Below, in pieces: positions 2,031-24,549 of a stretch of 64,000 bases of DNA; positions within the stretch are counted from its first letter, which is position 1; the number at the start of each line of letters is the position of its first letter. Source of the DNA: Eubacteriales bacterium (GTDB taxonomy: Bacteria; Bacillota; Clostridia; Lachnospirales; Lachnospiraceae). The notes under the pieces were generated by a model. It had not been told where the DNA came from, did no database searches, and saw only the letters and a program-made list of their open reading frames with translations. The position numbers and the translations under genes were made by a program. The stretch spans positions 301,577 to 365,576 of the forward strand of contig JAUNHC010000001.1 in the NCBI GenBank assembly GCA_030524175.1. Reading direction: 5' to 3'.

Positions 2031-3785
2031 TTATACTCTCTTCACTGAGTCAAATTTACAAGATTCTTCACACTTGCCGCACTTGATACATACAGCCGGG
2101 TCAATCTTGTGCATCTTTTTCTTCTCGCCGCTGATGGCACCAACCGGACACTGTCTTGCACAGGCACCGCAGCCTTTACAGTTCTCAGTGATCTCATAGC
2201 TGATAAGAGCTTTACAGGATTTTGCTGTACATTTGTGATTGTAAATATGGTCTTCGTATTCATTGCGGAAATATTTAATGGTGGTTAGAACCGGATTGGG
2301 AGCTGTCTGGCCGAGAGCACACATTGCACCATCTCTGATTTTTGCCGCAAGCTCTTCGAGAAGTTCTATATCGCCGTCTTTTCCTTCACCTTTTGTGATT
2401 CTTTCCAGAATCTCAAGCATTCTCTTTGTACCGATACGGCAATAATTACATTTACCACAGGATTCCTTCTTCGTGAAATCCAGGAAGAAACGTGCCATAT
2501 CCACCATACAGGTGTTTTCATCCATAACGATCATACCGCCGGATCCTACAATTGCACCTGTCCTGTTAATATCTTCATATGTAACAGGCGTATCAATAAG
2601 TTCCGCCGGGATACACCCACCTGACGGACCGCCCATCTGGACTGCCTTAAATTCTTTGTCATCTTTGATACCGCCGCCAATGTTATATATAACATCTTTC
2701 AGCGTCATACCCATAGGTACCTCTACAAGGCCGCCCTTCTTAATTTTTCCTGCAAGAGCAAATACTTTTGACCCTTTGGAACGTTCTGTTCCCATTTGTG
2801 CAAAAGCCTCACCACCATTTAACATAATCCATGCAACATTTGCGTAGGTTTCTACGTTATTGATGTTGGTAGGAAGTTTCCAGTAGCCTTTTGCTGCCGG
2901 GAACGGAGGTTTCAGTCGAGGCATACCGCGTTCGCCTTCCAGAGAAGCGATAAGAGCTGTCTCCTCGCCGCACACGAATGCGCCGGCTCCAGCCTTAATA
3001 CGAATGTCGAAATCAAAGCCTGTTCCGAACAGGTTCTTTCCTAAATACCCTTTTTCTCTGGCCTGTGCCATTGCGATCTCCAGCCGTGCGATCGCAAGAG
3101 GATACTCAGCACGGCAGTAAATGATTCCCTCTGTAGCTCCGGCAGCAAAACCGCCGATGATCATACCTTCCAGCAGGGAATGAGGATCGCCTTCCAATAC
3201 GGAACGGTCCATGAAAGCACCGGGATCACCTTCATCTGCATTACAAACCATATATTTCTGCGGACCACTGTTAGACTTGATGGCATTCCATTTAAACCAG
3301 GTTGGGAAACCTGCGCCTCCACGTCCACAAAGTCCGGATACTTTAATTACTTCAATCACTTCATCCTGAGTCATGGAGGTGATCACCTTCTTGGCAGCTT
3401 CATATCCGCCAAGTGCCACATACTCCTCAATCTTCTCAGGATTGATCTTGCCGCAGTTACGCAGTACAATACGTTTCTGCTGGGTTAAAAATGCTTCGTC
3501 TTCCTGTGGGATAACATATTTCTCAACAGGCTTTCCGCCCATTAAATGCTCTTCCACGATCTCAGCAACCTTATCTGTGGTACATTTCACATATCTTGCG
3601 TCCAGTACGCCTTCGTCATTATAGACATCTACGATTGGCTCCAGATAACAGGTACCGATACATCCGGTCTTGTCGATCACAACATTGCTCAAATTTTTCT
3701 CTGCAACGATTCTCTCGAATTCATTAGAGGTTTTTTTTGCGCCGGTTGCGATACCGCAGCTGCCTTGTCCTACAACAACTTTCAT
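2031..3785 (-). CDS. NuoF/HydB-like flavoprotein subunit, StnB-like
   Basis: 584 residues, starting at ATG 3785 after AGGAGGT. It should bind FMN and NAD(H) and pass electrons to iron-sulfur clusters, as in the diaphorase part of complex I and of bifurcating hydrogenases. Visible order: a thioredoxin-like 2Fe-2S domain (only C10, C42 and C46 obvious), the NuoF core with GRGGAGFPT and CNADEGDPGAF, an SLBB region, the 4Fe-4S motif ESCGKCNYCRIG, and a C-terminal two-cluster ferredoxin (CKGCGACARQC, CIKCGKCEESC). It lies between the NuoE-like and GltD-like genes with 11 and 15 bp gaps, so one operon. It resembles the second copy at 22762-24549. It is assigned to a transhydrogenase because no H-cluster gene is visible beside it. 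Confidence 0.9.
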   Translation of the reverse strand: MKVVVGQGSCGIATGAKKTSNEFERIVAEKNLSNVVIDKTGCIGTCYLEPIVDVYNDEGVLDARYVKCTTDKVAEIVEEHLMGGKPVEKYVIPQEDEAFLTQQKRIVLRNCGKINPEKIEEYVALGGYEAAKKVITSMTQDEVIEVIKVSGLCGRGGAGFPTWFKWNAIKSNSGPQKYMVCNADEGDPGAFMDRSVLEGDPHSLLEGMIIGGFAAGATEGIIYCRAEYPLAIARLEIAMAQAREKGYLGKNLFGTGFDFDIRIKAGAGAFVCGEETALIASLEGERGMPRLKPPFPAAKGYWKLPTNINNVETYANVAWIMLNGGEAFAQMGTERSKGSKVFALAGKIKKGGLVEVPMGMTLKDVIYNIGGGIKDDKEFKAVQMGGPSGGCIPAELIDTPVTYEDINRTGAIVGSGGMIVMDENTCMVDMARFFLDFTKKESCGKCNYCRIGTKRMLEILERITKGEGKDGDIELLEELAAKIRDGAMCALGQTAPNPVLTTIKYFRNEYEDHIYNHKCTAKSCKALISYEITENCKGCGACARQCPVGAISGEKKKMHKIDPAVCIKCGKCEESCKFDSVKRV

Positions 3786-3796
3786 ATTATTACCTC

Positions 3797-4309
3797 CTAT
3801 GCATTCTTTGCTTTGTATTCATCAAGAATCTTTCTGACAGATGCTTTCGTCAGGTTCCCGTAAGTCTCCTCACCGTCAACTGTCTTGATCATCATTACCG
3901 GTGCAAGAGAACAGCAGCCAAGACAGGCTACATTGTTAAGGGTAAACAATCCATCCTCCGTTGTCTCTCCGTCTTTGATTCCCAGATGCTCAGTAACCGC
4001 TTCTTCAATCAGGTCAGAACCGTTTACATGACAGGCTGTGCCTTTACAAAGCATGATCAGATATTTACCGATGGGCTGTAAACGGAACTGCGCATAGAAT
4101 GTAGCTACACCGTAAATTTTAGCAGGCATGATGCCGGTTTTCTCCGCCAGATAGTTAATGGCATCCAGAGAAAGATAACCGTAGATATCCTGTGTCTGCT
4201 GAAGAATGGTAATCAGGCTTCCTGGTACTTTCGCGTACTTCTCAAGTACAGGCGCCAATTCAGCGAAATCCGCGCTTCCGCCGTTTTGACATCCACACTT
4301 ATTGCTCAT
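3797..4309 (-). CDS. NuoE/HydC-like 2Fe-2S subunit, StnC-like
   Basis: 170 residues, first gene of the operon, starting at ATG 4309 after AGGAGGGAC. NuoE-type thioredoxin-like 2Fe-2S protein: helical N-terminus with the family phrase QDIYGYLSL (about 40-48), GVATFYAQF (67-75), and four cluster ligands C88, C93, C129 and C133 (CKGTAC and CLGCC). These proteins work as a small electron-transfer subunit with the NuoF-like partner encoded directly downstream. The N-terminus has two extra cysteines (NKCGCQNG) that are not part of the usual motif. Transcribed from a good sigma-A promoter at 4365-4392. Confidence 0.9.
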   Translation of the reverse strand: MSNKCGCQNGGSADFAELAPVLEKYAKVPGSLITILQQTQDIYGYLSLDAINYLAEKTGIMPAKIYGVATFYAQFRLQPIGKYLIMLCKGTACHVNGSDLIEEAVTEHLGIKDGETTEDGLFTLNNVACLGCCSLAPVMMIKTVDGEETYGNLTKASVRKILDEYKAKNA

Positions 4310-4392: not shown

Positions 4393-4561
4393 AGTGTTTA
4401 TTTCGTGACTTTTCTCAAAATTTGTCAAAAAAAGGAGGCTTTACCTCTTCTGATTAAGTAATTAACTATATTGTCAAAAAAATACCAGGAAATTCCTTTT
4501 CTATTGTGCATTTTTCGTCTTCAATTCCCTCAAATTTCGGAATTTCCCTGTATATTTCGCC

Positions 4562-4616: not shown

Positions 4617-7600
4617 TTATTTTGTTTTTGCTGCCGCACCTTTAGAGTAGATGCCGTAAACATTCTTTCCGTTTACCTTTTTGTAGCCCCGCACCATATA
4701 ATAATACTGGGTGCCCTTCTTTGCTTTTTTGTCCACATAAGTCAGTGTCTTGGAATTTGCAGTGAAAATTCTGCTCCAGGAACCATTCTTACCGGTCTTT
4801 CTGTATACCGCATATCCGGTTGCACCGGAAAGCTTATTCCACTTAACCTGAATGCTTGTCCTGGATTTTCCTTGTGCCGTAACTTTCGGTGCAGGCAGCA
4901 CTACCTTGACGGCTGCTGTCATCTTATCTGTGTACACACTCTTTACACTGTAATTTTTTGTTGTCCGGTATGCACGGACATGGTAGGTATATTGGGTTCC
5001 ATATTTCACCTTTTTGTCTATAAAGCTTGCTGCCTTTGATGCTTTTATGGTTCCCACTGCCTTATAACCCTGGTTACTGTTTGTTTCTTTCCGCCAAACT
5101 TTGTAGGTGGTTGCTCCCTCTACTTTGTTCCAGGTAACCTTCACCTGATTGGTGTTTACAACCGCAGCCTTTGCCTTAGGTGTGGCAAGCTTTGGCGTTG
5201 CCACCTTCTTATCTGCAGATGCTTTTGACTGGATACCTTTGCCGCCTTCATCCCAGAAGGCTCTTACTGCATAATAATAAGTTGTACCAGGTTTCGCGGT
5301 TTTATCTACGTAAGAGGTGGTGTTCTTTCCAACAGTTTTCAGTGCCGTATATTTAGCCCCTGCCTGTGTTCCTTTTCGGTAAACCCTGTAACTTCCTGCA
5401 TTCTCTATTGCTTTCCAGTTAATGGAGACAGTATAGAGAGTGTCAGCCTTTACGGTCACTTCCGGAACGGCAGCCTTGAAGGCATCTTCCGGGCTGGGAG
5501 TCGGTGTGGGTTCTGGACCCGGTGTTGGTGTCGGATCCGGAGTAGGACTTGGATCGGGAGTCGGTGTGGGGTCCGGTGTTGGCTGCGGTCCTGGTCCCGG
5601 ATCCGGTACATATATTACCAGCCCACTAATTGCTTCCCCAAGTCTTTTCAGTACCGCGTCAATGTCTTCCTGAACTGCTGCCGGATTTTCAAGGATACCT
5701 TTTGCACTTTCCAGTGCTGCCTGGAATTCACTCCATGATTCACGGGTATAGCCGATATCGGTTTTATCCTTGTTTGCCTCATACAGTTCCTTTAATTCCT
5801 CAGTGGATGTAGGCTTCGGAAGTTCTTCTGCTGTCTGCATCAGTTCTCCGAGTACCGCCTGGATTTCCTCAGAGGTTACCTGATCTGCACCTCTGTTCAC
5901 AAGTGCTTCTGTTTCAGTCATGGCAGTCTCAAAAGCATTCCAACGTTCTTCGGAATATTTCTCTTTTACCTTGCCCTTAAGCGCATATGCTTCTGTCTTT
6001 AAGTTGAAAATCGCTTGCTCCACTTCTGTCAGATCACTGGCTGCGGGCTTCAGTCCCCGTATAGCCTCTTCCAGCTCTGCCAATGCAGTGTCGATCATAT
6101 TCTGAGTCACATCACCTGCCTGAAGCATTATTTCTTCCTCGGAAACATTCTCTTCCTCTTCGGATGAGAAAATTTCTTCCGGAATGAATGCATCCTCATT
6201 CTCTACTGTCTCACTGTCCTGAGGATCCTCTGCCATAAAAGCATCTTCCGGCATAACCGGTTCTTCTGGAGCAAAAGCATCCCCTGATGTAAACATGTCT
6301 GCAGGTGCTGGTTCCAGTGCTTCTGTCACAGCCGCAGCTTCACTGATTTCTGCTGCTGATGTCTCTGCACCATCTGTAAACATCAGAATTTCCTGACTTG
6401 CATCCCAATCTTCCCCAGTATCTTCTGATACCGGTTCTTCCTCTGCCGGGGTTTCTGTGTCTTCAATAACTGTATTCTCAGCCTGCAGTTCTGCAACGTC
6501 TTCATCCTCAGGTTCTGTCTGCTCACCAAGAAGCTCAGCTGCTCTTGTTTTCTTTGCAGTGTAGTTGTTAAAGCTTTCTTCCGTATATAGTGTCTGAGTC
6601 TGTTCCGCATCTATAATTTCTGTTCCGAAATCATGGAGCTGTTTAAGTTCTCTGTAATCCAGCTCATTTTTCACAAGTCCGTTCACAGCATTTATGATCG
6701 CATCCATGGCTTGAGTCAACGCTTCCTGGTCCATACTGCCATTGTCCAGAAGTGCCTGTGCATCAGAAATAGCTGACTGCAGTACATCCCAGCTTTCCGG
6801 TGTGTAATTGTCATTGACAACAGCTTTAGCTATGGTAATTTGCTGAGCCAATTCCTCACGAAGTGCTCCGGCTTCTGTAATTCCGAAGGTCACTTCTAAT
6901 GCTGCATCTTCATTGATATTCTGGAAAGTATATCTGTCTGCAGTTTCCACTGGCTGTCCGTTGACCATGACAGATACTACCTGATAACCGGCATCCGGCT
7001 TGAAGATAAGTGTCTTGTCTGCACCGTCAAAGGCTGTTACTGCTCCTGTCTGGCTGACTGTGCCGTTCTCGCCTGATGTTACTGTGATCGTGCGTTTCTG
7101 TCGGTTTGTATAGTATGTTTCCTTCACAGAAATTGTGTTCGCTGCCCGTCTTGACGCATACGCATATTTTCCGCCCTGAGGTCCATAGCCTAAACCGGAA
7201 ACAGTTCCGCAAGATAATCCGTTTACAGTTAAAGTAAGGCTGTAGGTTCCGTCAGTATCCTTGTCAAAACCAAGCTCTAACTCATACTCCTTGCCTGCTT
7301 CCAGCTTGACAGGCTGATCCGGGAAATCTCCCCATCCCTGTCCCACAGAGGATTTATCATAGAACCAATGTCCGCCCCCTGCTGTTTCATATCCGATTCT
7401 GATATATCCTGCGGCAGAGCCGTCAGAAGTTCCGTCGGTCATCAAATCAAACAACACCTGGTCATCCAGATTTTCCACGCTGAATCTGGTATAGAAAGTT
7501 CCGCCTGTAAGTTCAGGCGCATTCGTATCCATGGCAATTGCAAAATTATTGTCTCCCCCTGCCTTCATTTTCAGGACTGCTGCTCCATTTTCTACATTCT

Positions 7601-10600
7601 GGCTTTCCAGAAGGTTTCCGGAATAAGCGGCTGCCGTGTCAACAGCAAAATCCTTATGGTAGGTCACAGCCTTGGGAATTTCCTTGAAACTTATTGTTAT
7701 CTCTTTATCTTCCTGAATATTCTCCAGAGTAAAGATACCGTTTTGTTCAACTTTCATTACAGTGCCGTTGACAGTCACATCTGCCTCATATCCTTCAGCA
7801 GGATTGATAAGGAAGGACTTGTCCGCGCCATGATAGGTTGTAATCGTGCCTGTTTCACTGACAGTACCGTTTGTCTCATCTGCGGATACTGTCAGGATGT
7901 GGGCACTCTGGCTGGTATAGTATACTTCATCAATGGAATATACTTTATCGGCTCTTCTTGCTCCCCATCCGAATGTACCTGGTGTAGTGAGATAATCTTG
8001 CTCCACAGTGCCGATAACAGTGCCGTTTACAGTAAGTGTAACAACATATAACGCCTTGCCGTTACCGTAATCCTCTTTGATTTTGAATTCAGCCTTCAGA
8101 TCATAAGTTTTGTCAGCTTCAAGTAATACGGCATTACCAATATCTCCCCATCCCTGTCCGCTAAGGGACTTGTCATAAAACCACATTGCCCTGGAAGCTG
8201 CAGGATCGTAATCATATCCAATTCGGATCACATCATTGTCTCCCGCACGCTTCAAGTCAAAGATTGTCTGATCTGCAATATCGTTTACCCGGAATCTCGT
8301 GTGTAAAACACCTTGGGAAATGGCCTCTGCCTCTTCCGGTACAGCGGCACGTACCTCATTTCCTGTTGTTGCTGTCTTTAATACCTTCAGGTTAAGATGC
8401 CCCTCCTCAAGAGCTGCCGTACTTTCTGAATATTTATCTGTACCATCCACACGGTAGTCTTTATGGTATAGGCCTTGTACTCCCGGATCCGGTTTATCAC
8501 TTCCTCCGGTAAATACAGCTTTTACTGTATGGTTGTCAAGAAGGTAAGTAAATGTATAGCTGTTTCCCGCATTTTTTACTTCTTCCGTCACATCTGTTCC
8601 GTCTACCACAACAGACTCCAGTTCTTCACCGCTGTCCGGTATGAATGAGATAGTTTTATCTGCTTCCTTAAAGCTGGTAACTGCCCCCGTCTGGCTGGCT
8701 GTACCGCTGCCTTCTGTGCTCACCTGAATCGTGACAGGATCTGCATCTGTTAAGTAAGTTTCCAGGATCTGGAAGTTCTTAGCTTTATTTCTTGCTTCAA
8801 ATGCAAGTCTTCCGGTTCCGGCCGCATAAGCAATATCCTTATGTGTCGCCCCAATCTGAACACCGTTGATCCAAAGCGTCAGATTGTATTTATTATTCTC
8901 ATTAAGTTCATACTTCAGATGCAGTTCTGTTTCCTTATCGGCCTGAAGAGGCTGGGCATTGCCGAAATCAGCCCAGCTTGCACTGTCCCAGAACCACTTC
9001 CCGCTGCCAGCGTCAAATCCAATGCTTGCCCGTTTCTCGCCCTGGTCATCCACAATTACAAACTTAGTCTGGTCTAAAGTATTATCAACCTTGAACCGTA
9101 CATACAGATGTCCTTCTGCCAGAAGCGGAGAATCCTTATCCACTGCAATGCTGTGTGCATTTACTGCTAGGTTCAAAGCATTATTTCCAATTGCGGCTAT
9201 GCCTCCGGTAAAGTTGGCTTCTCTGTCTGTACGATAATCCTTATGATAGCTTACAAACTGTGCCTTCTTCTGTGCGGCGAGGAAACTTTCCCTTGCCCCG
9301 TCCAGATCAGCAAAGGCCTGCTGCAGCTCTTCCGGAGCTGATTGGGAGGTGTAGCTATCGGCAGTATCTATTGCTGCCTTCAGGGAGTCCTTATCCTTCT
9401 GGTCAAATTCTCCCGGTCTGATACCGACTACTGCATTATCATATAATTCCCGGCATTCATTGATCAGCTCACGGAGGGCTTCATAAGAAACACCGGCAGG
9501 CATATAAGCCTTTACAACAGGAAGGATTGTCTCATGTCCTTCTGCGTTGGTAAGTCTCATCTCAACCTTAACATACTCTCTGGCCTGCGTAAGAGTTTTC
9601 ATGGTTGTTTTGAGCACATTTCCAGGCTCCTGGAACGCATCCTTCTTTTTAATTGAATATACATATTCCACAAAGGCGTTTTCCGGATCATCCAGATTCA
9701 CGTCAGAACGTTTATTAAATGCCAGGGCATCTGTGTTCTGGTTTTCTGAACCTGCATCTTGGGAACCGGCAAATTCAAATTTACTGCTGTCATAAATAAC
9801 TCTTACTTTCATGGTGCTGAACTTCTTGTAAATATTTTCTGCACCCACGGTGAGTTCATGAAGGTTTGCCTCTTCCTTGTCAGTGACTTCTGCAGAAGCG
9901 CTCATTTCTCCGCGTACTTCTGTCCCGTATACACCTAACTCAGTAAGAGACATGCCCCATTCGGCATTCATTTTCTCCCCTACAATTTTCACATATCTGG
10001 CCACAACAGAATCCAGCTCTGTTACATTGAGTCCGGGATTTGCTTCGCTTATAGAAGCAGCTGTTTTCCACTCCTGGCCATCCTCAGATATTTCAATGTG
10101 ATAAGAGGTGGCATAAGCTCCCGGTGTCCAGTCAACCATTACATGATTCAGCATATACTTAGTCTGGAGATCAACTGTAATAGATGCCTCAGACACTCCG
10201 TTTTCAGTGGACCATCTGGTTGCCTGGTCGTCATCGTTAGCATTTTCAAGAGCCTTATAAGACTCCGGTGCCGTGGAAGAAGACTCAAGAGTTACACCTT
10301 GTTTTAATGCCAGGTTCTCGTCTGTGATCGGCTCGTATGCTTCCAGAATAACAGCATTGACCATAGCCTTGGAACCACCAATGCCCTGGAAGGAAATGTC
10401 TACAAGTCCGTCCTTGGATGCTGTCTCAAATACAAGTGCAGTTCCTTTATCACTGCCTTTGGCTGCTTCGGTGACGGAATAATTCTCTTTCACTGTCTGT
10501 CCGTTGATCAATACATTAAATTTATGATTCTGCCCTGATCCTTCATTAAAATAAAGTTTTACCCGATACTGTCCGGGTGCTTCCTTAAATTTATATCCAA

Positions 10601-13536
10601 AGCTTTCGCCTTCACGGGCTGTTTTAAGAACTGTGCCCATTCCTGCGTCCGGATCAGGCAAAGTGTTGGAAACTGCTGTCTCCTGGCTGCTGCCGTAATA
10701 GCCGCTGCCGTTTTTGTCCGTATAAGCAGTATCCGCTGCCAGTCCGTCAAAAGCTCCGCCGCCGGCATTTAATCTGGAAACCACTTCCGTCATCGGCTGT
10801 CTGTCCGCAGATATACCGCATAGAACAGGATTTGTCAGCACTCCTGCCCCATTGTAGCTGGCTGTGAGCTTCACGCTGATTTTTCCGTCAGAGGGATAGA
10901 TTCCCCCCAATTCCACAATCTGATCTCCGGAAGGAAGATGGTAATCCTCTTTCATTGTCTTTCCGTTTACTAAAATATTGAAGGTCCTGTCTGAAACACC
11001 TTCGAGTTCATTGAAATACAGCCTGAGGGTGTATTCCCCTTTACTTCCGTAAATCTTGTATTCCAGTGTATCATCTGTAAGACCGGATGCAAAAACAGAA
11101 TCTGCATCTGTATTGCCGACCACCTGGGGTTCACCCACATAACCGGATTGTTTTCCCGTCTCCTGGAACTGCTGGTCTGCTGAAAAACCTTCGATTTCTT
11201 TTCCGCCTGCATTATAAGATTTGGAATGCTCCTGAAGCTGAAGCTGCCACTGCTGGGAAGCTTCGCCCCCTGAAGTCTGAAGGGATGCCTTGTTTTCTGC
11301 CGCTGTGACGGATTTCCCATTCACTGCTATGCCCACCAGGCCATTCTTCAAATCTTCAAGCTGCCATACGGTCTGACTGGTTTCTTTAAGCGCCAACACT
11401 CCGGATTCTGCCTCAAGATAGAGATAACTGTTAATTCCACTATCCCAGATGCGGATCTTATATCCGTTTTCACCGCTGCCTACTACCATAAAGTCCTGGC
11501 TGGATGCTTCCTCTGTGCCAATGGTCACATTTTCGCCGTCTCGTTGCAGATAGCTCTTTGTGTCACGGTTATAGAACTTGTAGACTGCATTCTTTTCAAT
11601 ATTTACAGGATTTGCCTCATAGCGTGACTCTTCAAGTCCGATGTCCGGTGCTCCCTGGTACAGAGCATTTCCGTAGAAATCCTGATAGGTATTATAATCC
11701 CCTGTCTGCCAATTCCACTGTGGTGCATAATCCCCGGTACCCTGAGGAACCACATCCACATAGGAGCCTGCACCAATTGCAGGAGATCCTTCCTGAAGCT
11801 GATATGCAGAAAGACTGCTCCAGTTGGCTGTTTCCCCTCCGCCTGGGTTTACAAACTTCGGGTCAACATGAAGTGCACCCGGAATCTCTTTCGAATCATG
11901 AATACCGCTGGCTTCATATACTATATTATTCTCTGTAACAGCGTTTTCCCAATTTCCAATCCTCCAACGTGAGGTCTTTTCTTCATTAGTATTATACCAG
12001 ATATTATTATAGTAATTAAAATACTTACCAATATTAAGATTGGCATTATCATCGGTGTTACCATCATGAATAAATCTCCAATTAGCTCCATCATAATAAA
12101 ATACATTATTATACACATAACTGGCCGAACGCTGATCATAAACAATATGTCTCCAGGTCAAACCATCATTCTGGCTTAAGTTATATCTTACAATATCTGT
12201 ATCATTATTACCCATAAGAAGCATAAAGCCCATTGGTGTATCATGGCTATAGTTATATTGGTAAATGGTTCCTCCTGACCAGTAATCACTGTCATAAGAG
12301 CAGCCGTCCTGATTGAAAGAAGGTCCGGCATAAGCTTCATTATACTGGAATACCGTATCAAAAGCATTCCACTGCCAAATACCTGCATTTGCCCCTGTTG
12401 CTCTCCAGGTATGATGATCCATAAGGTTGTTTTCACACAGAGCGCCCTTTGTAGAATCGATCAGGATACCGTCACCGCCGATATAAGAGAGCTTATTGTT
12501 GCGCACAACATAATTCAGTGCAGCCTGATTATAGCCCTTTGTATTGCGTACATTGCTGTAGCGGGTGCCGTCATTGCCTCCCCACTCTCCTTCGTCACCG
12601 TCCAGTCTGGTAAGGCGCACACCTTTGATTCCGCAGCGTTCAACCATCTCAATGACATTGTTCTGAAGAGTCACACCGTCAAAATATGGATGTCTGCCGC
12701 TGCCCTCATAAGCTTTGTCGGTATCATTATAATAATTGACTTCCACACCGATACCGCCGCTCAGTTTGTTTGTATTACAGTTCTCATCGCCGTCAACATT
12801 GTGGATATAACATCCGTCAATATTGATTCCTTTATAAGCGCGGTTTTCCTCGTCCACGATTCCCGTATCGGGATTTATAGCTGTGGATGTACCCTTTTTG
12901 AGCGTATCGGTTTTCCGCTCATCAATACTGATATGTATTCCCAAGGGACGGAATTGATCATATTCTCCACCTTTTCCTATGAAATTTTTTCGGTTATTAG
13001 GGTCATTAGCTTCTGTTGTTTCATTGAAAACATCATCATTAGTAAGCTCAAGACCTGTCACATCCACATATTCCATATTCTCAATAAGAAGAGCTTCCCG
13101 GAATTGATAACCTGCATTGATCACAGGTTTGTTATTGCTTTCACCATATGTACCGATAAGTATATGTTCTTCCGGAGTTCCCTTTCCTTTTGGATACAAC
13201 TGCTGGTCATCAAAAATACTTCCCTTTTTCAGCAGTATTGAATCCCCCGGCTGCAGAGCCAGTTCATTTACCTTATTGAGACTCTTAAATGCCGCAGCTT
13301 CTGTTTTACCGTCATTTCCATCATTTCCGGCTTCACTGTCAACATAATAAATCTGACCGCTGCCGGGCTGGTAAGTCCCCGCTTTCTCAGCCTGATATCC
13401 TCTCTGCTGTTGAGAAGCTTCATAAGTAGATTCAGGTTTTACCCCCCCCCCCGGCTGCAAATACGCCTGCAGGCATCATGGTTATTGTCATGACCCCTGC
13501 AAGGAGGAGACTTAAAATTTGATTTTTTCTTTTCAT
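4617..13536 (-). CDS. Giant secreted beta-helix/malectin/F5-8C/FIVAR/FN3 protein, out of frame at an 11-G tract
   Basis: A signal peptide starts at ATG 13536 (GGAGGACC upstream; MKRK, hydrophobic core, cleavage after GVFA). Its frame meets a run of 11 G (13442-13452) and stops at 13432. The body is open from the tract to 4617. Losing one G (or gaining two) would give about 2,972 residues. Body domains, numbered from 13460: right-handed beta-helix (30-620, pectate-lyase-like fold, possibly a glycan-active enzyme), two malectin-like domains (770-1040), F5/8C discoidin (1050-1180), cohesin-like (1185-1310), FIVAR, three tandem LamG-like plus InlB-B-type repeat units (1403-2200), FIVAR domains (2205-2265, 2470-2613) around an acidic stretch (2320-2450), a Pro-Thr linker (2617-2660) and three FN3 domains to the end. 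There is no LPXTG or membrane anchor. Probably binds or degrades host or plant glycans outside the cell. The catalytic family is not identified. Confidence 0.8.
6865..9255 (-). repeat. Three tandem ~265-residue repeat units in the giant protein
   Basis: Each unit begins with YHKDYRTD, YHKDYRVD or YHKDFAVD, continues as a concanavalin/LamG-like sheet with WFYDKS or WFWDSA, and ends with an InlB-B-like repeat (GTASQTGAVT, GTVSETGTIT, GTVSQTGAVT). Unit starts are near 9252, 8465 and 7661. Likely glycan-binding modules that arose by duplication. Confidence 0.8.
13442..13452 (-). repeat. Homopolymer tract of 11 G (minus strand) just after the signal peptide
   Basis: Eleven consecutive C on the plus strand. 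It separates the signal-peptide frame from the body frame of the giant protein. Such tracts slip during replication, and this position would switch the protein on or off; a homopolymer sequencing error would look the same. Confidence 0.95.
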
Positions 13537-13556
13537 AATTGGTCCTCCATTGTTTT

Positions 13557-14300
13557 TTAGGAAACAGCTTCAAGCAGAATCTCTGTCAGTTTATCACCTT
13601 CCTTTTTAATATTTGCCTGATCCAGCTGTTTGTTCATATATTCCTCAAAAGCCTGAGTATCAGCGAGATTCTTAACTGAATTCTCCACATCCTCATAGGG
13701 CTCCTCTAAGAAATACGTCTTATTATCCTGGTATAGTTTCTCTAGTTCATCCTCGCTGTGTTCCCAGGCCCCCTCTTTGCTGAGAAGCTCTGTCAGTCTC
13801 AGCTCCAGATTGGAATTCATATAGTCGTAGTATTCTTTTTCTCCATATGTAATAATGCCGTAAATAACCTCATTGTTATCTCTTCTCTTTTCCCGTTCCT
13901 TATTTTCTTCCTGACGTTTTTTGTCAATGCTCGGATAGTCTATGTTGTCCAGAAGCCCTTGCTTCCGCGATTCCTCTTGCAGCAGCTTTGCATAAGAGCA
14001 CTGCTTTAACACCACATCGGTAAGTTCATCCAAAGGGGTCTGTCCATTCTTATATTCCTGTTCCCAGGAGAATTCATCACTCTTAAGATGGTTATCTGTT
14101 ATAATATGGTTTCGGACAGTAAGACGGTTATCCTGTACTGCAAAATCCAGTTCCTGCTTGTAAACAGGTATTTCATCCACGTAGACAACAGGTTTCTCCT
14201 TCTCTGAAAAACAGCCGGAAATGGAAGCTGTCAGACATCCCGCTATCAAAATCCCTATAAAGCCTGAGAAGATACTTGTGATTTTTTTTATTTTCATCAT
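13557..14300 (-). CDS. Lipoprotein with SurA/PrsA-like N-terminal segment
   Basis: About 247 residues from ATG 14300; a TTG at 14321 would add seven residues and has its own GGGGAGA only within the extended frame. A hydrophobic signal is followed by two possible lipobox cysteines, LIAGC and SISGC, eight residues apart. After the signal comes VVYVDEIPVYKQELDFAVQ, which resembles the N-terminal chaperone segment of SurA/PrsA-type foldases; I see no peptidyl-prolyl isomerase domain. The rest is charged and helical. The gene stops 20 bp before the start of the giant secreted protein, so the two share an operon. A role in folding or export of that protein is an inference from position. Confidence 0.6.
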   Translation of the reverse strand: MMKIKKITSIFSGFIGILIAGCLTASISGCFSEKEKPVVYVDEIPVYKQELDFAVQDNRLTVRNHIITDNHLKSDEFSWEQEYKNGQTPLDELTDVVLKQCSYAKLLQEESRKQGLLDNIDYPSIDKKRQEENKEREKRRDNNEVIYGIITYGEKEYYDYMNSNLELRLTELLSKEGAWEHSEDELEKLYQDNKTYFLEEPYEDVENSVKNLADTQAFEEYMNKQLDQANIKKEGDKLTEILLEAVS

Positions 14301-14455: not shown

Positions 14456-14490
14456 GAAAAAAGAGGAGTCTCTGCCCGGGAAACTCCTCT
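14456..14490 (-). terminator. Terminator of the ClpP-like protease gene
   Basis: AGAGGAGT and ACTCCTCT arms (14462-14469 and 14483-14490) around a 13-base loop, followed on the minus strand by a T run. Located about 40 bases after the stop at 14529. Confidence 0.85.
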
Positions 14491-18805: not shown

Positions 18806-20518
18806 TTATTCCCCCTCTTCTTCAAAGAGGATAGAATCCCTCAGCTTCGTAAGCGTCACCTTCGTCTCTGCAGTTGTCTCACCCAGAAGACCTGCGATTT
18901 CCTGTGCTACCATCATCTGTTTGTCAATGACCTCCTGGGCCATTTCCACTGTCTCCATCTTAAGTTTGAACCTTTGCTCCTTAGCCTGTTCCTCCTTGGT
19001 CACATCCTGATAGATTACCAGTACCGACTCCATTGCTTCTATAAAAACAATAGTTTCCACAGCTATGATCCCCAAAGGCTTCAAATCTGTTTTTTTATGA
19101 TGAATAGGCCGTCTGGTACGGAGAACCTCCGCAATATCATCCTCATCCAGAAATTCAAAAATGTATCTCTCCAACGCCTCTTCCCTGGAAATGCCAAGAA
19201 CCTCCTGGGCTTTTTTATTACATTCTTTTATTCTGAAATCTTTGTCTACAATGAAATTCAGGTTTGGGGTCATGTCCAGCACCACATTTGACATAGATTC
19301 CGCCTGGGCAACCGCATAGGGAAGACACATTTCAAGCTCGGCCTTTTTCTGGAAAACTGCTGTGGCCTTTGCACGGCAGTCAGGATATCCGCAGGCACCG
19401 CAGTTAAGCTCGTCATCCCTGGTATACTTGCCGATAGCCCTAAGAAGTGCGGTAAGCTCCTCTTCTGTGGGAACCGGCTCCGGAATACGTCGGTCGGAAA
19501 AAGCTTTCTCCATAGCCACCTCAGGTGTCTCCAATTTTGCAGACTCCCTTCCCCTTACCTGTCTCTCCACGTTCAGTTTTCCTTTCACAAAGGAACGGTT
19601 CCAATTGTGGGAAGCCGGGCCTTTAATACATCCGCCTTCACAGATATTCACTTCCAGAAAACAGCCTTCTATCTCATCCTTCTCCATGCTGTCAAACAAT
19701 TCCATACATGGTTCCAGGCCATCCACATAGAGCATTCTGTATGTATCCCCGCAGGCCTCTGCCAGCACAGATTTCACAATGCCTCCGCTTACCGGATACA
19801 ATCTGTTCACCTGAGGACTGGGATTTCCCATTTCTTTTTCTTCACAGTCTTGAATATGGATGCCTTCCCTTTCAAGCCATGGCACGATCTCATCGAATGT
19901 GAGGATAGCATCAACCGCCCCTTCCACACGTTCGTCCCCTATGGCCTCCGCTTTCTTGGCAATACAAGGCCCTAAAAATACAACCTTTACAGAACTGCCG
20001 TATATTTTTTTGATCAGACGTCCGTGGACGATCATGGGAGACACCACCGGTGCCATCTGGGAAGTAAGGCTGGGATAGTATTTTTCCACCAGGTCGTTGA
20101 CACTTGGACAGCAGGTGGTGATAATGTTCTTCATTTTTCCTTCTGACAGCAGCCTCTGATATTCTCTGGTGACATAAGCCGCTCCTTCCGATGTCTCACG
20201 TACCTCAAAGAATCCCAGCCTCAGCAGTGCGTCCACCACCTGGCCGGGCTTCTTGTACTCCAGAACGCCCAGATAAGAGGGGGCTATGGAAATCACCACC
20301 TTTTCTCCCTGGCGGAGATAATTCTTCACCTTATCCATATCACTGGAGAATGTCTTTGCGTTCTGGGGACAGACCTCAAGACAGCGGCCGCAGTGTATAC
20401 ACTGCTCCGTGATAATATGAGCCTGGGCATTTCTGACAGAAATTGCTTTTACACTACAGTTTCTCACACATTTATAACAATGTTTACAGCTTGCATCACG
20501 AAAATCAATTACTTTCAT
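18806..20518 (-). CDS. Putative sensory [FeFe] hydrogenase with PAS domain (HydS-like)
   Basis: 570 residues, ATG 20518 after AGGAGG. Domains: two 4Fe-4S ferredoxin motifs (CKHCYKCVRNC and CIHCGRCLEVC, 1-60), an H-cluster domain with L1 TTCCPS (near 134), L2 GPCIAKKAEA (near 181) and L3 CEGGCIKG (near 293), a small Fes-type 4Fe-4S domain (CGACGYPDC, near 374), and a PAS domain (about 415-520, DFRIKECNKKAQEVLG). All four expected H-cluster cysteines are present. This architecture is that of group C putative sensory hydrogenases such as HydS. It should report H2 or redox state through the PAS domain, here probably to the coupled SpoIIE-type phosphatase. Catalytic turnover is expected to be low in this group. 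Confidence 0.85.
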   Translation of the reverse strand: MKVIDFRDASCKHCYKCVRNCSVKAISVRNAQAHIITEQCIHCGRCLEVCPQNAKTFSSDMDKVKNYLRQGEKVVISIAPSYLGVLEYKKPGQVVDALLRLGFFEVRETSEGAAYVTREYQRLLSEGKMKNIITTCCPSVNDLVEKYYPSLTSQMAPVVSPMIVHGRLIKKIYGSSVKVVFLGPCIAKKAEAIGDERVEGAVDAILTFDEIVPWLEREGIHIQDCEEKEMGNPSPQVNRLYPVSGGIVKSVLAEACGDTYRMLYVDGLEPCMELFDSMEKDEIEGCFLEVNICEGGCIKGPASHNWNRSFVKGKLNVERQVRGRESAKLETPEVAMEKAFSDRRIPEPVPTEEELTALLRAIGKYTRDDELNCGACGYPDCRAKATAVFQKKAELEMCLPYAVAQAESMSNVVLDMTPNLNFIVDKDFRIKECNKKAQEVLGISREEALERYIFEFLDEDDIAEVLRTRRPIHHKKTDLKPLGIIAVETIVFIEAMESVLVIYQDVTKEEQAKEQRFKLKMETVEMAQEVIDKQMMVAQEIAGLLGETTAETKVTLTKLRDSILFEEEGE

Positions 20519-20763
20519 TACTGTATCCTCCTAAGAACCTCTTCCTGGAAAAAAGCTTCTGTCTCATCCGGTTTTAAATGGTAAACCTTTTCTCCGTCCA
20601 CACGGACACTTACCCCTTTTGAGCAGGCATCCATACAGAAGGAGCCGCATAATTCAATCTCTGCATTTACTTTATATTGCTTTAGTAAAAGCGTCATTTT
20701 TTCAATCACTTCATGGGAGCCTCTCAGATGGCAGGAGCTTCCAATACAAATCTCAATTTTCAT
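20518..20763 (-). CDS. Small 2Fe-2S thioredoxin-like ferredoxin
   Basis: 81 residues, ATG 20763 after GAGGTGG. A stand-alone NuoE C-terminal-type 2Fe-2S domain with the complete ligand set C6, C11, C39 and C43 and an extra C47. Its stop overlaps the ATG of the sensory hydrogenase by one base (TAATG), so the two are co-translated and it probably delivers electrons to, or takes them from, that sensor. Such small ferredoxins accompany HydS genes in other clostridia. Confidence 0.85.
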   Translation of the reverse strand: MKIEICIGSSCHLRGSHEVIEKMTLLLKQYKVNAEIELCGSFCMDACSKGVSVRVDGEKVYHLKPDETEAFFQEEVLRRIQ

Positions 20764-20893
20764 TTGCCCACCTCTTAATCTAAAACATTGTCAGCACTAC
20801 AGCTTGTTTGATAATTCATTCCCACATATTCTGATCCTGTGAAACTCAGGACAGCCGGTCTCTGCGTTAATTTTATCACATGCCAATTGTATA

Positions 20894-20938
20894 AACAAGC
20901 CGGGCAGATACCATTTTCACGGTTCTGCCCGGCTTGTT
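20894..20938. terminator. Strong 15-bp hairpin after hydA
   Basis: Perfect arms 20894-20908 and 20924-20938 (AACAAGCCGGGCAGA and its complement) with a 15-base loop that has its own three-pair stem. It lies 67 bases past the hydA stop. The T-rich tail is short, so termination may be partial and allow read-through to the sensory genes. Confidence 0.7.
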
Positions 20939-21004
20939 ATCAAATCAGACGGCTGTGCAGTTGCCGCCTTAAAGTAACTGCCAAAGTTTCAGATGATGTT
21001 AAGA

Positions 21005-22747
21005 TTAATTGATCGTTCTTTTCACATAAGAGGTGTGTAAAATGTGGTGTGCTTTTTCGCTTCCCGGCTTTTCCAGATACTCGTCATATAATTTCTTGAT
21101 AGAAGGATTTTCGTGAGATTTGCGCAGTGCTTTGTTTGCGTCATTCTCATACAATACCTTTGCCCGGAGAGCACGTACGTCTGTAAAGTTTCTTACATGA
21201 CCTGATACCTGAGGCTGTCCGCCGCCGTTTACACAGCCGCCGGGACAGCACATGATCTCAATGAAATGATAATCAGCTTCTCCTGAACGTACTTTATCCA
21301 TAACAATTTTCGCATTGGATAGTCCGGAAGCCACTGCCACCTTCACATCCATTCCTGCCACATGGTAGACAGCCTCTTTGATGCCTTCTGTACCGCGGAC
21401 TTCTTTAAACTCCACATCTTTCAGTTCTTCCCCGGTAAGAGTTTCCACTGCGGTACGCAGTGCAGCTTCCATAACGCCTCCGGTAGCTCCGAAAATAACT
21501 CCGGCACCTGTGGATTCTCCCAGCGGATCATCAAAGCCTTCATCCGGAAGACTGTTGAAATCAATGCCAAGCCTCTTGATCAAACGTGCAAGCTCTCTTG
21601 TTGTCATGGCAATGTCAACATCAGGTACACCGGCAGCACTCTGGTCATCACGGCCGATCTCAAACTTTTTGGCTGTACATGGCATTACGCTGACACACAC
21701 AATATCTTTAGGATCTATGCCCATCTTCTCCGCATAGTAAGTCTTTGCCACTGCACCGAACATCTGCTGAGGAGATTTACAGCTTGACAGGTGATCCAGC
21801 TGATCCGGATAATAATGCTCGCAATATTTGATCCATCCCGGTGAACAGGAGGTCATCATAGGCAAAACACCGCCGTTCTGAACTCTGTCAAGGAATTCAT
21901 GTGCCTCCTCCATAATGGTAAGGTCAGCACTGAAATCAGTGTCAAATACTTTGTCAAACCCGATTCTGCGAAGTGCGGCGGCAAGCTTGCCTTCCACATC
22001 TGTTCCTATAGGATATCCGAATTCTTCCCCAAGGGCAGCTCTCACAGAAGGTGCCGGCTGTACGATCACATGCTTGGACGGATCGGCGATCGCTTCCAGA
22101 ACATCATCCAGGCTGTCTTTTTCCCGGAGGGCACCTGTAGGACAGACTGCAATACACTGTCCGCAGGATACGCAGCTTGTTTCAGCCAGGGGCAGATCAA
22201 AGGCCGTGCCGATATAGGATGCAAAACCTCTGTTGTTGGGGCCGATGATTCCCACAGTCTGTACCTTCTCACACACAGCACTGCAGCGTCTGCACAGGAT
22301 ACATTTATTGTTATCACGGATCATATGGGCAGCTGACAGATCCAGTTCATATTCATTCTTCTCCCCTGAGAAATAATCCTCATCAGCCACGCCCAGCTCC
22401 TTACACATCTGCTGAAGCTCACAGTTTCCGCTCCTTACACATGAGAGACAGGTTCTCTCATGATTGGATAAGAGAAGCTGCAGAGTTCTTCTTCTGGATG
22501 CCAGAAGCTGCGGTGTGTTGGTCTGGACTTCCATTCCTTCACTCACTGGATGCACACAGGCAGCCACAAGATTTCTCGCACCCTTTACTTCTACCACACA
22601 CATACGGCAGGCACCAATTTCATTGATATCCTTCAAGAAACAGAGGGTGGGAATTTTAATTCCTGCGATATGTGCTGCCTCTAAGACGGTAGCGTCAGCC
22701 GGTGCACATACATCTATACCATTTATTTTAAGATTAACGTTTTCCAT
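21005..22747 (-). CDS. hydA: Electron-bifurcating [FeFe] hydrogenase catalytic subunit HydA
   Basis: 580 residues; ATG 22747 has GGAGG eight bases upstream, whereas ATG 22762 overlaps the hydB stop. Domains: NuoG-like 2Fe-2S (1-80), His-Cys 4Fe-4S (about 95-135), two 4Fe-4S clusters (CILCRRCSAVC, CVSCGQCIAVC), then the H-cluster domain with L1 TSCSPGW (near 300), L2 MPCTAKK (near 355) and L3 CCPGGC (near 503). With HydB and HydC it forms the trimeric enzyme that couples H2 to NAD+ and ferredoxin by flavin-based bifurcation. L1 has Ser where most enzymes have a second Cys. Last gene of the hydC-GHKL-2Fe2S-hydB-hydA operon, followed by a strong hairpin. Confidence 0.95.
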   Translation of the reverse strand: MENVNLKINGIDVCAPADATVLEAAHIAGIKIPTLCFLKDINEIGACRMCVVEVKGARNLVAACVHPVSEGMEVQTNTPQLLASRRRTLQLLLSNHERTCLSCVRSGNCELQQMCKELGVADEDYFSGEKNEYELDLSAAHMIRDNNKCILCRRCSAVCEKVQTVGIIGPNNRGFASYIGTAFDLPLAETSCVSCGQCIAVCPTGALREKDSLDDVLEAIADPSKHVIVQPAPSVRAALGEEFGYPIGTDVEGKLAAALRRIGFDKVFDTDFSADLTIMEEAHEFLDRVQNGGVLPMMTSCSPGWIKYCEHYYPDQLDHLSSCKSPQQMFGAVAKTYYAEKMGIDPKDIVCVSVMPCTAKKFEIGRDDQSAAGVPDVDIAMTTRELARLIKRLGIDFNSLPDEGFDDPLGESTGAGVIFGATGGVMEAALRTAVETLTGEELKDVEFKEVRGTEGIKEAVYHVAGMDVKVAVASGLSNAKIVMDKVRSGEADYHFIEIMCCPGGCVNGGGQPQVSGHVRNFTDVRALRAKVLYENDANKALRKSHENPSIKKLYDEYLEKPGSEKAHHILHTSYVKRTIN

Positions 22748-22761
22748 TTTCGCTTCCTCCA

Positions 22762-24549
22762 TTACTCTTTATGAATTGCGCCGAATCGGCATTTTTCCAT
22801 ACAAGCACCGCATTTTACACATTTTTCCTGATTGATCATGTGGGGCTGTTTCTTCTCACCGACAATGGCTCCGTTTGGACATACCCTGGCACATAAAGTA
22901 CATCCTTTACATTTATCTGCATCAATCTTAAACTGCAGCAAATCTTTACATACGCCTGCCGGACATTTCTTATCCACGATATGGGCGATATATTCATCGC
23001 GGAAATACCGCAGTGTAGAGATTACCGGGTTTGGTGCAGTCTGTCCCAAAGCACATAAAGAGTTGGATTTCAAATGGTAGGCAAGCTCTTCCAGCTTGTC
23101 CAGATCTTCCATAGTTCCCTGGCCTTTTGTGATCTTCTCCAGGATTTCCAGCATACGTCTCGTACCGATCCGGCATGGCGCACATTTGCCGCAGGATTCA
23201 TCCACTGTAAACTCAAGGAAGAATTTTGCAATATCCACCATACAGTTATCTTCATCCATGACGATCAATCCGCCGGATCCCATCATGGAACCTATGGCGA
23301 TCAGATTATCATAATCAATGGGAACATCCATTTTCTCCGCAGGGATACATCCGCCGGAGGGACCGCCGGTCTGTGCTGCTTTAAATTTCTTTCCTCCCGG
23401 GATACCGCCGCCGATTTCTTCAATGATCTCACGGAGTGTGGTTCCCATAGGAATCTCAACAAGACCTGTATTGTTAATCTTGCCTCCCAAAGCAAATACC
23501 TTGGTTCCTTTGGATTTCTCAGTACCCATAGCGGAAAACCATTCCGGCCCGTTTAAGATGATCTGAGGAATATTTGCGTAAGTTTCCACATTGTTAAGTA
23601 TGGTAGGTTTCTGGAACAAACCTTTCAATGCCGGGAACGGAGGACGGGGACGGGGCTCACCTCTGTGTCCCTCAATGGAAGTCATAAGAGCTGTCTCTTC
23701 GCCGCAGACAAAAGCTCCTGCACCCAGTCTTAAATCTATATCAAAATTAAAGCCTGAATCAAAAATATTCTCACCCAGCAGACCGTAACCCCTGGCCTGT
23801 TCGATTGCAATCTGAAGCCGCTTTACAGCGATGGGATATTCTGCACGCACGTAGATGTATCCCTGGGAAGCACCGATGGCATATCCTGCGATCGCCATTG
23901 CCTCCAATACAACATGGGGATCTCCTTCCAGAATGGAACGGTCCATAAATGCTCCCGGATCTCCTTCATCTGCATTACAGCACACATATTTCTGATCTGC
24001 ATCATTGCCTTTTGCAAACTTCCATTTCAGTCCTGTAGGGAATCCGGCACCCCCGCGGCCCCGAAGCCCGCTGTCCAGCATTACCTGGATAACATCATCA
24101 GGTGTCATCTTGGTTAGCACGGTACCTAAAGCTTCATATCCTCTTGTTCCTATGTATTCATCAATATTCTCCGGGTTGATAACACCGCAGTTGCGCAGAG
24201 CGATCCTTTTCTGCTTTTTATAGAACTTTGTCTCCTGAAGGGGCAGAATTTCCTCCTGCTTTGTGGTCTCATCATACAGAAGACGTTTAACCACCCTGCC
24301 TTTTAACAGATGCTCGCTTACGATTTCCGGTATATCCTCTTCCTTCACCATAGAATAGAAGGAACCCTCAGGATAAACGATCATAATAGGACCAAGCGCA
24401 CAAAGTCCAAAACATCCTGTCTTAACGACACCGACCTCTTCTGAAAGGCCTGCTTTGCCGATTTCTTCCTGCAATTTCTCTATAATTCTCTGGCTTCCGG
24501 AGGAAGTACAACCTGTTCCGCCGCAAACCAATACGTGTGAACGATACAT
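22762..24549 (-). CDS. hydB: NADH-binding flavoprotein subunit HydB of the hydrogenase
   Basis: 595 residues, ATG 24549 with GGAGGG upstream. N-terminal thioredoxin-like 2Fe-2S domain (CGGTGCTSSG, then CFGLC), NuoF core binding FMN and NADH (GRGGAGFPTGLKW, CNADEGDPGAFMDR), SLBB region, 4Fe-4S motif ESCGKCAPCRIG and a two-cluster C-terminal ferredoxin (CKGCTLCARVC, CVKCGACMEKC). It is the likely site of electron bifurcation in HydABC. The stop overlaps the spurious upstream ATG of hydA. Close paralogue of the StnB-like gene at 2031-3785, but here the N-terminal 2Fe-2S domain keeps a full CxxxxC. Confidence 0.95.
   Translation of the reverse strand: MYRSHVLVCGGTGCTSSGSQRIIEKLQEEIGKAGLSEEVGVVKTGCFGLCALGPIMIVYPEGSFYSMVKEEDIPEIVSEHLLKGRVVKRLLYDETTKQEEILPLQETKFYKKQKRIALRNCGVINPENIDEYIGTRGYEALGTVLTKMTPDDVIQVMLDSGLRGRGGAGFPTGLKWKFAKGNDADQKYVCCNADEGDPGAFMDRSILEGDPHVVLEAMAIAGYAIGASQGYIYVRAEYPIAVKRLQIAIEQARGYGLLGENIFDSGFNFDIDLRLGAGAFVCGEETALMTSIEGHRGEPRPRPPFPALKGLFQKPTILNNVETYANIPQIILNGPEWFSAMGTEKSKGTKVFALGGKINNTGLVEIPMGTTLREIIEEIGGGIPGGKKFKAAQTGGPSGGCIPAEKMDVPIDYDNLIAIGSMMGSGGLIVMDEDNCMVDIAKFFLEFTVDESCGKCAPCRIGTRRMLEILEKITKGQGTMEDLDKLEELAYHLKSNSLCALGQTAPNPVISTLRYFRDEYIAHIVDKKCPAGVCKDLLQFKIDADKCKGCTLCARVCPNGAIVGEKKQPHMINQEKCVKCGACMEKCRFGAIHKE

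Follow-up and report, generated by a model that had tools for sequence, protein, structure and literature searches.

The 64-kb stretch of DNA analysed here (the window, 64,000 nucleotides) belongs to a Blautia, a gut bacterium of the same genus as Blautia schinkii DSM 10518, and carries on its minus strand a very long gene, lnbX, whose signal peptide and body stand in different reading frames on either side of a homopolymer. An ATG at 13536, with the ribosome-binding-like sequence GGAGG 7 nt on its 5′ side (13544..13548), opens a typical, intact signal peptide of 28 codons (13453..13536) that leads into 11 consecutive G at 13442..13452 (C11 on the plus strand). The open reading frame from 13536 to 13432 translates as MKRKNQILSLLLAGVMTITMMPAGVFAAGGGGKT and then stops, a TGA at 13432..13434 closing the signal-peptide frame at 34 codons. 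The body, offset by one from this frame, comprises 2,941 codons counted after the glycines (4617..13442) and is open until its stop; the same frame extends from 13460 to 4617, or 2,947 amino acids from the earliest possible start codon. Both the position of the G11 run between the signal peptide and the 2,941-residue body and the frame arithmetic that places a stop after 34 codons had been given in the first-pass annotation, and they are exact. As assembled, the translated gene thus encodes no exported full-length protein, and a long homopolymer is so placed that its length decides expression. The window holds no further G run of at least 7. A terminator-like hairpin lies 3′ of lnbX at 4435..4447 on the minus strand, by pattern match alone (one found against 0.2 expected).

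The gene directly upstream on the minus strand, lnbY (13557..14300), ends 20 nt before the lnbX start and encodes a lipoprotein-like homologue of the lacto-N-biosidase chaperone LnbY (GH136I; NCBIfam LnbY, E 2.3e-10; 40.7 bits, under the equivalog cut-off of 400). The same arrangement is found in B. schinkii and in the relatives L049 and L050. A terminator-like hairpin 5′ of lnbY (14462..14490, minus strand; pattern match alone, one found against 1.0 expected) suggests that lnbY and lnbX form a two-gene unit. The adjoining genes (Fe-hydrogenase, NuoF-like, YebC and CorC-like by Pfam) offer no clue to lnbX. On the minus strand at 2031-4309 and 18806-24549, the region is flanked by genes for NuoF-like proteins, thioredoxin-like ferredoxin and Fe-only hydrogenase (Pfam), which resemble electron-bifurcating hydrogenase sets.

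Lacto-N-biosidases cut milk and mucus sugars. The lnbX body starts with a GH136-type lacto-N-biosidase domain (residues 27-613 of P0001; 11622..13382, minus strand) that matches the NCBIfam LnbX model with E 6.2e-44 and the solved lacto-N-biosidases with E 2e-36 to 6e-27. The acid/base and nucleophile roles of the GH136 Asp pair are taken from PMC7335108, while the residue numbers were matched to the structure chains in the present analysis. Two catalytic-type Asp codons (12306-12308 and 12285-12287, minus strand) lie within FNQDGCSYDSDYWS, and the seven-residue spacing of the pair in FNQDGCSYDSDY corresponds to that in NQDSMAWDADS of 6kqs; in alignment A1 the first Asp is invariant in 15 rows and the second is replaced by Glu in two. 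The predicted fold of the domain is the right-handed beta-helix of GH136. Homology, the two catalytic-type Asp and the predicted beta-helix thus all identify the product as a GH136-type lacto-N-biosidase homologue. Since its equivalog score of 150 bits is below the cut-off of 2500 for the full-length LnbX model of 1,498 positions, it is named here a GH136-type homologue and not an LnbX enzyme proper. Further along the minus strand, Pfam places malectin (best stretch) and F5/8C domains at 9945..10775, a FIVAR domain at 6675..6866 (the best of two stretches) and an fn3-like stretch at 5238..5468. As context for a release of lacto-N-biose, matches to family GH112 number three in each of two Blautia genomes (the present one and B. 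schinkii), with none in 14 control genomes. The in-phase product would presumably be exported and active, acting on type-1 milk or mucin glycans. What had been called a surface protein can accordingly be described more sharply as a secreted GH136-type glycosidase with an adjoining chaperone gene.

The N-terminal 700 residues of the body find a match in 38 of 397 genomes of the family and in 4 of 64 Blautia genomes; within the genus, B. schinkii alone besides the present genome has a close match (84%). Its lnbX orthologue carries G10 at the same junction, likewise out of frame, with the signal-peptide frame stopping right after the run. Between the two junctions the letters at the run edges differ, the total length is equal, and both genes are OFF in one and the same phase. 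The bodies share 79.8% identity over 2,931 aligned codons with no stops, and dN of 0.126 against dS of 1.26 (dN/dS 0.10) places the body under purifying selection. A dead gene would not be expected to keep some 2,940 codons free of stops at this ratio. In L049 and L050 (49-58% identical) a signal peptide stands in frame with the GH136 domain and no run intervenes, from which it follows that signal peptide and body are one gene. Among 21 relatives, a hydrophobic leader was recognized by reading in 15 and none was seen near the domain in six (L017, L018, L051, L061, L063 and L065); none of the 21 contains a G run of at least 6 in the stretch examined.

Long G runs constitute a distinct class in Blautia, as the counts of runs of exact length derived from several genome run listings demonstrate. 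The present genome (a draft of 5.95 Mb) contains 23, 5, 6, 6 and 3 runs of exactly 7, 8, 9, 10 and 11 G. Were the drop between 23 and 5 to continue at the same rate, one or two runs of nine or more G (G9+) would be expected, and there are 15; base composition alone could yield some G9 in 6 Mb, and the argument against chance lies in how the lengths are distributed and not in the number of runs as such. B. schinkii, with 32 G9+ runs, has 22, 1, 10, 7, 9, 4 and 2 runs of exactly 7 to 13 G; the corresponding counts from 7 G upward are 18, 2, 6 and 4 in genome G010 and 3, 1, 3, 1 and 1 in G014, giving a hump at 9 G or more in four genomes. A G9 run is present in 51 of 64 Blautia genomes and a G10 run in 84 of 250 genomes of the family (the present genome included in both), and the earlier statement that such runs are rare in this group of bacteria consequently falls.

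Placement sets the class apart as well. Under a fixed rule (an ATG behind a ribosome-binding-like site and 200 open bases past the run, applied to loci fetched around runs), the share of split genes among split and in-phase genes is 27/512 for G4, 10/102 for G5, 1/12 for G6, 1/4 for G7-8 and 18/22 for G9+. The G9+ set comprises 99 runs, a part of those in 14 Blautia genomes chosen partly from among the matches listed and excluding two runs less than 60 nt from a stretch end; 18 split a gene, four are in phase, 13 are promoter-like, nine lie near gene ends and 55 are unclassified. Strand bias was considered as evidence of selection and dropped: G9+ runs lie in the sense direction by 48 to 7 (seven further runs without an ORF; 62 runs in four genomes), and ordinary G5-7 runs do so by 207 to 60 (27 without an ORF), so that the bias of the long runs is no stronger (Fisher p 0.14). 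TA follows 56 of the 99 G9+ runs in the fetched Blautia loci, of which 13442-13452 is the example in the window, and 17 of 315 G5-7 runs; it also follows 10 of the 18 coding splits, and -10 boxes account for 13 cases only.

A second design places the run within a promoter. A -10 box directly follows 13 of 99 G9+ runs against 3 of 315 G5-7 runs. In four of these 13 cases a -35 box is matched as well, in 5 or 6 letters and at a distance of 18-20 nt, where shuffling gives a mean of 0.43 (p 0.001). The strict promoter-spacer pattern occurs at 14 places in 8 of 64 Blautia genomes and at none when reversed; it is absent from the present genome and from B. schinkii. The consensus TTGAC-N-G run-TAWAAT is seen at G003 C2:54185, C14:42881, C77:1449 and C88:64486 and at ten other places, and the spacers counted under this pattern, 18-20, are longer than the usual 17, making them candidate promoter-spacer switches. 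A homopolymer between the -35 and -10 boxes operates the Bordetella fim and Neisseria porA switches; these resemble the Blautia promoter runs in their spacer homopolymer, and differ from lnbX in that the parallel concerns other Blautia runs.

Many such runs stand in surface and control genes. Besides lnbX, three runs of the present genome split secreted proteins closely behind the signal peptide: a BspA-type leucine-rich-repeat protein (L004), a protein of some 1,160 residues with no family assignment (L005), whose gene occurs in 1 of 64 Blautia genomes, namely its own, and a Cthe_2159/List-Bact-repeat protein (L006). In B. schinkii the orthologue of the last (58%) is a single ORF with a signal peptide and no run, which indicates that runs come and go on otherwise functional genes. 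Elsewhere in this genome, runs interrupt the genes for an acyltransferase (L009) and for a 7TMR-DISM histidine kinase (L013); still others lie in front of genes for LytTR regulators (L010, L012), for a MerR regulator (L002) and for a prepilin (L003). In B. schinkii the split genes include those for a GHKL kinase, a glycosyltransferase, an acyltransferase, a prophage adenine methylase and an FdtA-like enzyme. At L010 4971, L046 4009, L012 5036 and L078, long runs were noted in front of or within genes for LytTR-type response regulators and sensor kinases, and some long runs may thus switch regulators. At L077, L087, L088 and L089 (two-contig G010 and one-contig G014), long runs cut frames that resemble sugar O-acetylation transferases, called acyltransferase- and hexapeptide-like by reading alone.

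Given the many runs of this kind in Blautia surface and control genes, the G11 run probably makes lnbX a contingency gene, in which replication slippage switches a secreted GH136-type lacto-N-biosidase by phase variation. As slippage added or removed G, a single phase out of three would join signal peptide and body, leading to export of the giant enzyme, and in the other two translation would stop just past the signal peptide, so that the assembly would show the gene in its OFF state. The upstream lnbY would not be switched and would be readable in both states. By analogy with B. breve (Bifidobacterium; see below), slippage would drive the changes in length, selection on enzyme export would sort the resulting variants, and run length would be expected to vary within populations. 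The lnbX run would then belong to a genus-wide set that splits secreted proteins, glycosyl- and acyltransferases and sensor kinases, or sits in promoter spacers. The phase-variable design proposed at first pass thus gains support in part: signal peptide and body form one gene, given the in-frame homologues without a run, the run is common to B. schinkii, and the layout is that of the B. breve pilus genes.

Comparison between species bears on this interpretation in a more mixed manner. Six run pairs taken as orthologous were aligned base by base over 55 to 613 nt. A clear net change in length is found in two, by one base in L003/L043 and by two in L132/L139 (82% identity over 613 nt), and no net change in three, namely lnbX itself (L015/L048), L010/L046 and L001/L036; for L110/L124 the alignment gives no clear-cut difference. 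The promoter spacer is 17 in both members of L010/L046, and a fixed spacer of this length may explain the constancy. An initial reading in which four orthologous runs all differed in length was discarded, as three of the four show no net change when aligned base by base. The constancy of the lnbX junction leaves room for transcriptional slippage or for a miscount, and the OFF phase common to two species either reflects coincidence or hints at programmed transcriptional slippage.

Under programmed recoding, an OFF-looking run would be kept, and RNA polymerase slippage or ribosomal frameshifting would supply a steady fraction of full-length protein with the DNA unchanged. The equal step by which both species are out of frame over a junction of unchanged length speaks for such an arrangement, and transcriptional slippage is used by Thermus dnaX and by IS elements according to PMC5009743. 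However, two species would share one OFF phase by chance in 2 of 9 cases, recoding makes no sense in promoter spacers, where runs also sit across the genus, 4 of 22 coding G9+ runs are in phase, and in the B. breve analogue the variation was measured in DNA (PMC9187656); we consider recoding unlikely. Equally improbable is a sequencing or assembly miscount, in which the run would be real, its true length fixed in phase and the gene intact. The assembly is a draft in 119 contigs, and PMC9187656 remarks that annotated G-run lengths can be wrong, but the B. schinkii assembly would have to contain, independently, an error of equal phase, genes are split by long runs in many assemblies including the one-contig G014 and the two-contig G010, and a long coding run would remain slippery regardless. 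A pseudogene, inactivated by a frameshift that has become fixed, is very improbable: the assembled lnbX cannot yield an exported full-length protein, yet its body is stop-free in both species despite a dS of 1.26, and the catalytic Asp pair and the chaperone gene are retained.

Homopolymer phase variation has mostly been studied in Gram-negative pathogens, and the commensal example is provided by bifidobacterial pili. In the sortase-pilus genes bbr_0113 and bbr_1889 of B. breve UCC2003, G-run slippage was measured in DNA: as PMC9187656 reports, a single-colony culture contained 37% G11, 59% G12 and 3% G10 at one locus and 93.4% G10 and 6.5% G9 at the other, and run lengths shifted in mice. In these genes of a gut commensal, too, a G10-G11 run separates a short ORF for the signal peptide from a long one for the body (2,674 aa in one case); they differ in belonging to Actinobacteria, in encoding an LPXTG pilin followed by a sortase gene and in having had their slippage measured, whereas lnbX is a Blautia glycosidase without downstream operon genes and is known here from its sequence. 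Campylobacter jejuni cgtB also has a coding G run with ON/OFF control through slipped-strand mispairing, as given in PMC6437147, but in another phylum and in a glycosyltransferase instead of a secreted hydrolase. The Bifidobacterium longum LnbX/LnbY and the Roseburia and Eubacterium GH136 enzymes (PMC7335108; 5gqc, 7v6i, 7v6m, 6kqs) share with lnbX the beta-helix, the Asp pair and an LnbY-type partner gene; lnbX is distinguished by its 2,941-codon body with malectin, F5/8C, FIVAR and fn3 domains, by the G-run split and by scores under the NCBIfam cut-offs.

The slippage mechanism and the split layout are thus already known. A search of open-licence papers found, among the matches listed and judged by title or the start of the abstract, nothing on homopolymeric phase variation in Blautia; in the same literature, poly-G phase variation or slipped-strand mispairing combined with Lachnospiraceae led to a match that concerns Campylobacter, homopolymer repeats in Firmicutes to one on Mycoplasma, homopolymeric slippage of a glycoside hydrolase to one on Helicobacter, and phase variation with lacto-N-biosidase to a review match only. 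As far as this literature goes, the lineage, the genus-wide repertoire of two designs and the host-glycan hydrolase as target are new. With even chances, in our judgement, genome-wide poly-G switches (coding splits and promoter spacers) make clonal gut populations of Blautia, and perhaps of many Lachnospiraceae, mosaics in polysaccharide decoration, sensing and host-glycan foraging, the lacto-N-biosidase with its always-on chaperone being one such switch. If so, chance would decide, as a form of division of labour, which cells release lacto-N-biose, a major gut genus could flip clonally in its use of glycans, and annotation would be labelling as broken genes that are merely switched off.

Two further observations concern B. 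schinkii. At about position 4040 of L033, a prophage D12 adenine methylase is split by G9 within its FVGGG motif. Its relatives comprise nine IMG/VR loci, one of which (L068) is an identical sequence with G9, the other eight having the motif in frame and no G run longer than 4; the split methylase had no match in the phage collection. Prophages were considered as a route to length variation, and this was rejected since the eight run-less methylases show an intact ancestor and not a varying length. Finally, at L031, L032, L036, L042, L044 and L047, long runs lie within mutually similar repeated stretches, which are perhaps a repeat element.
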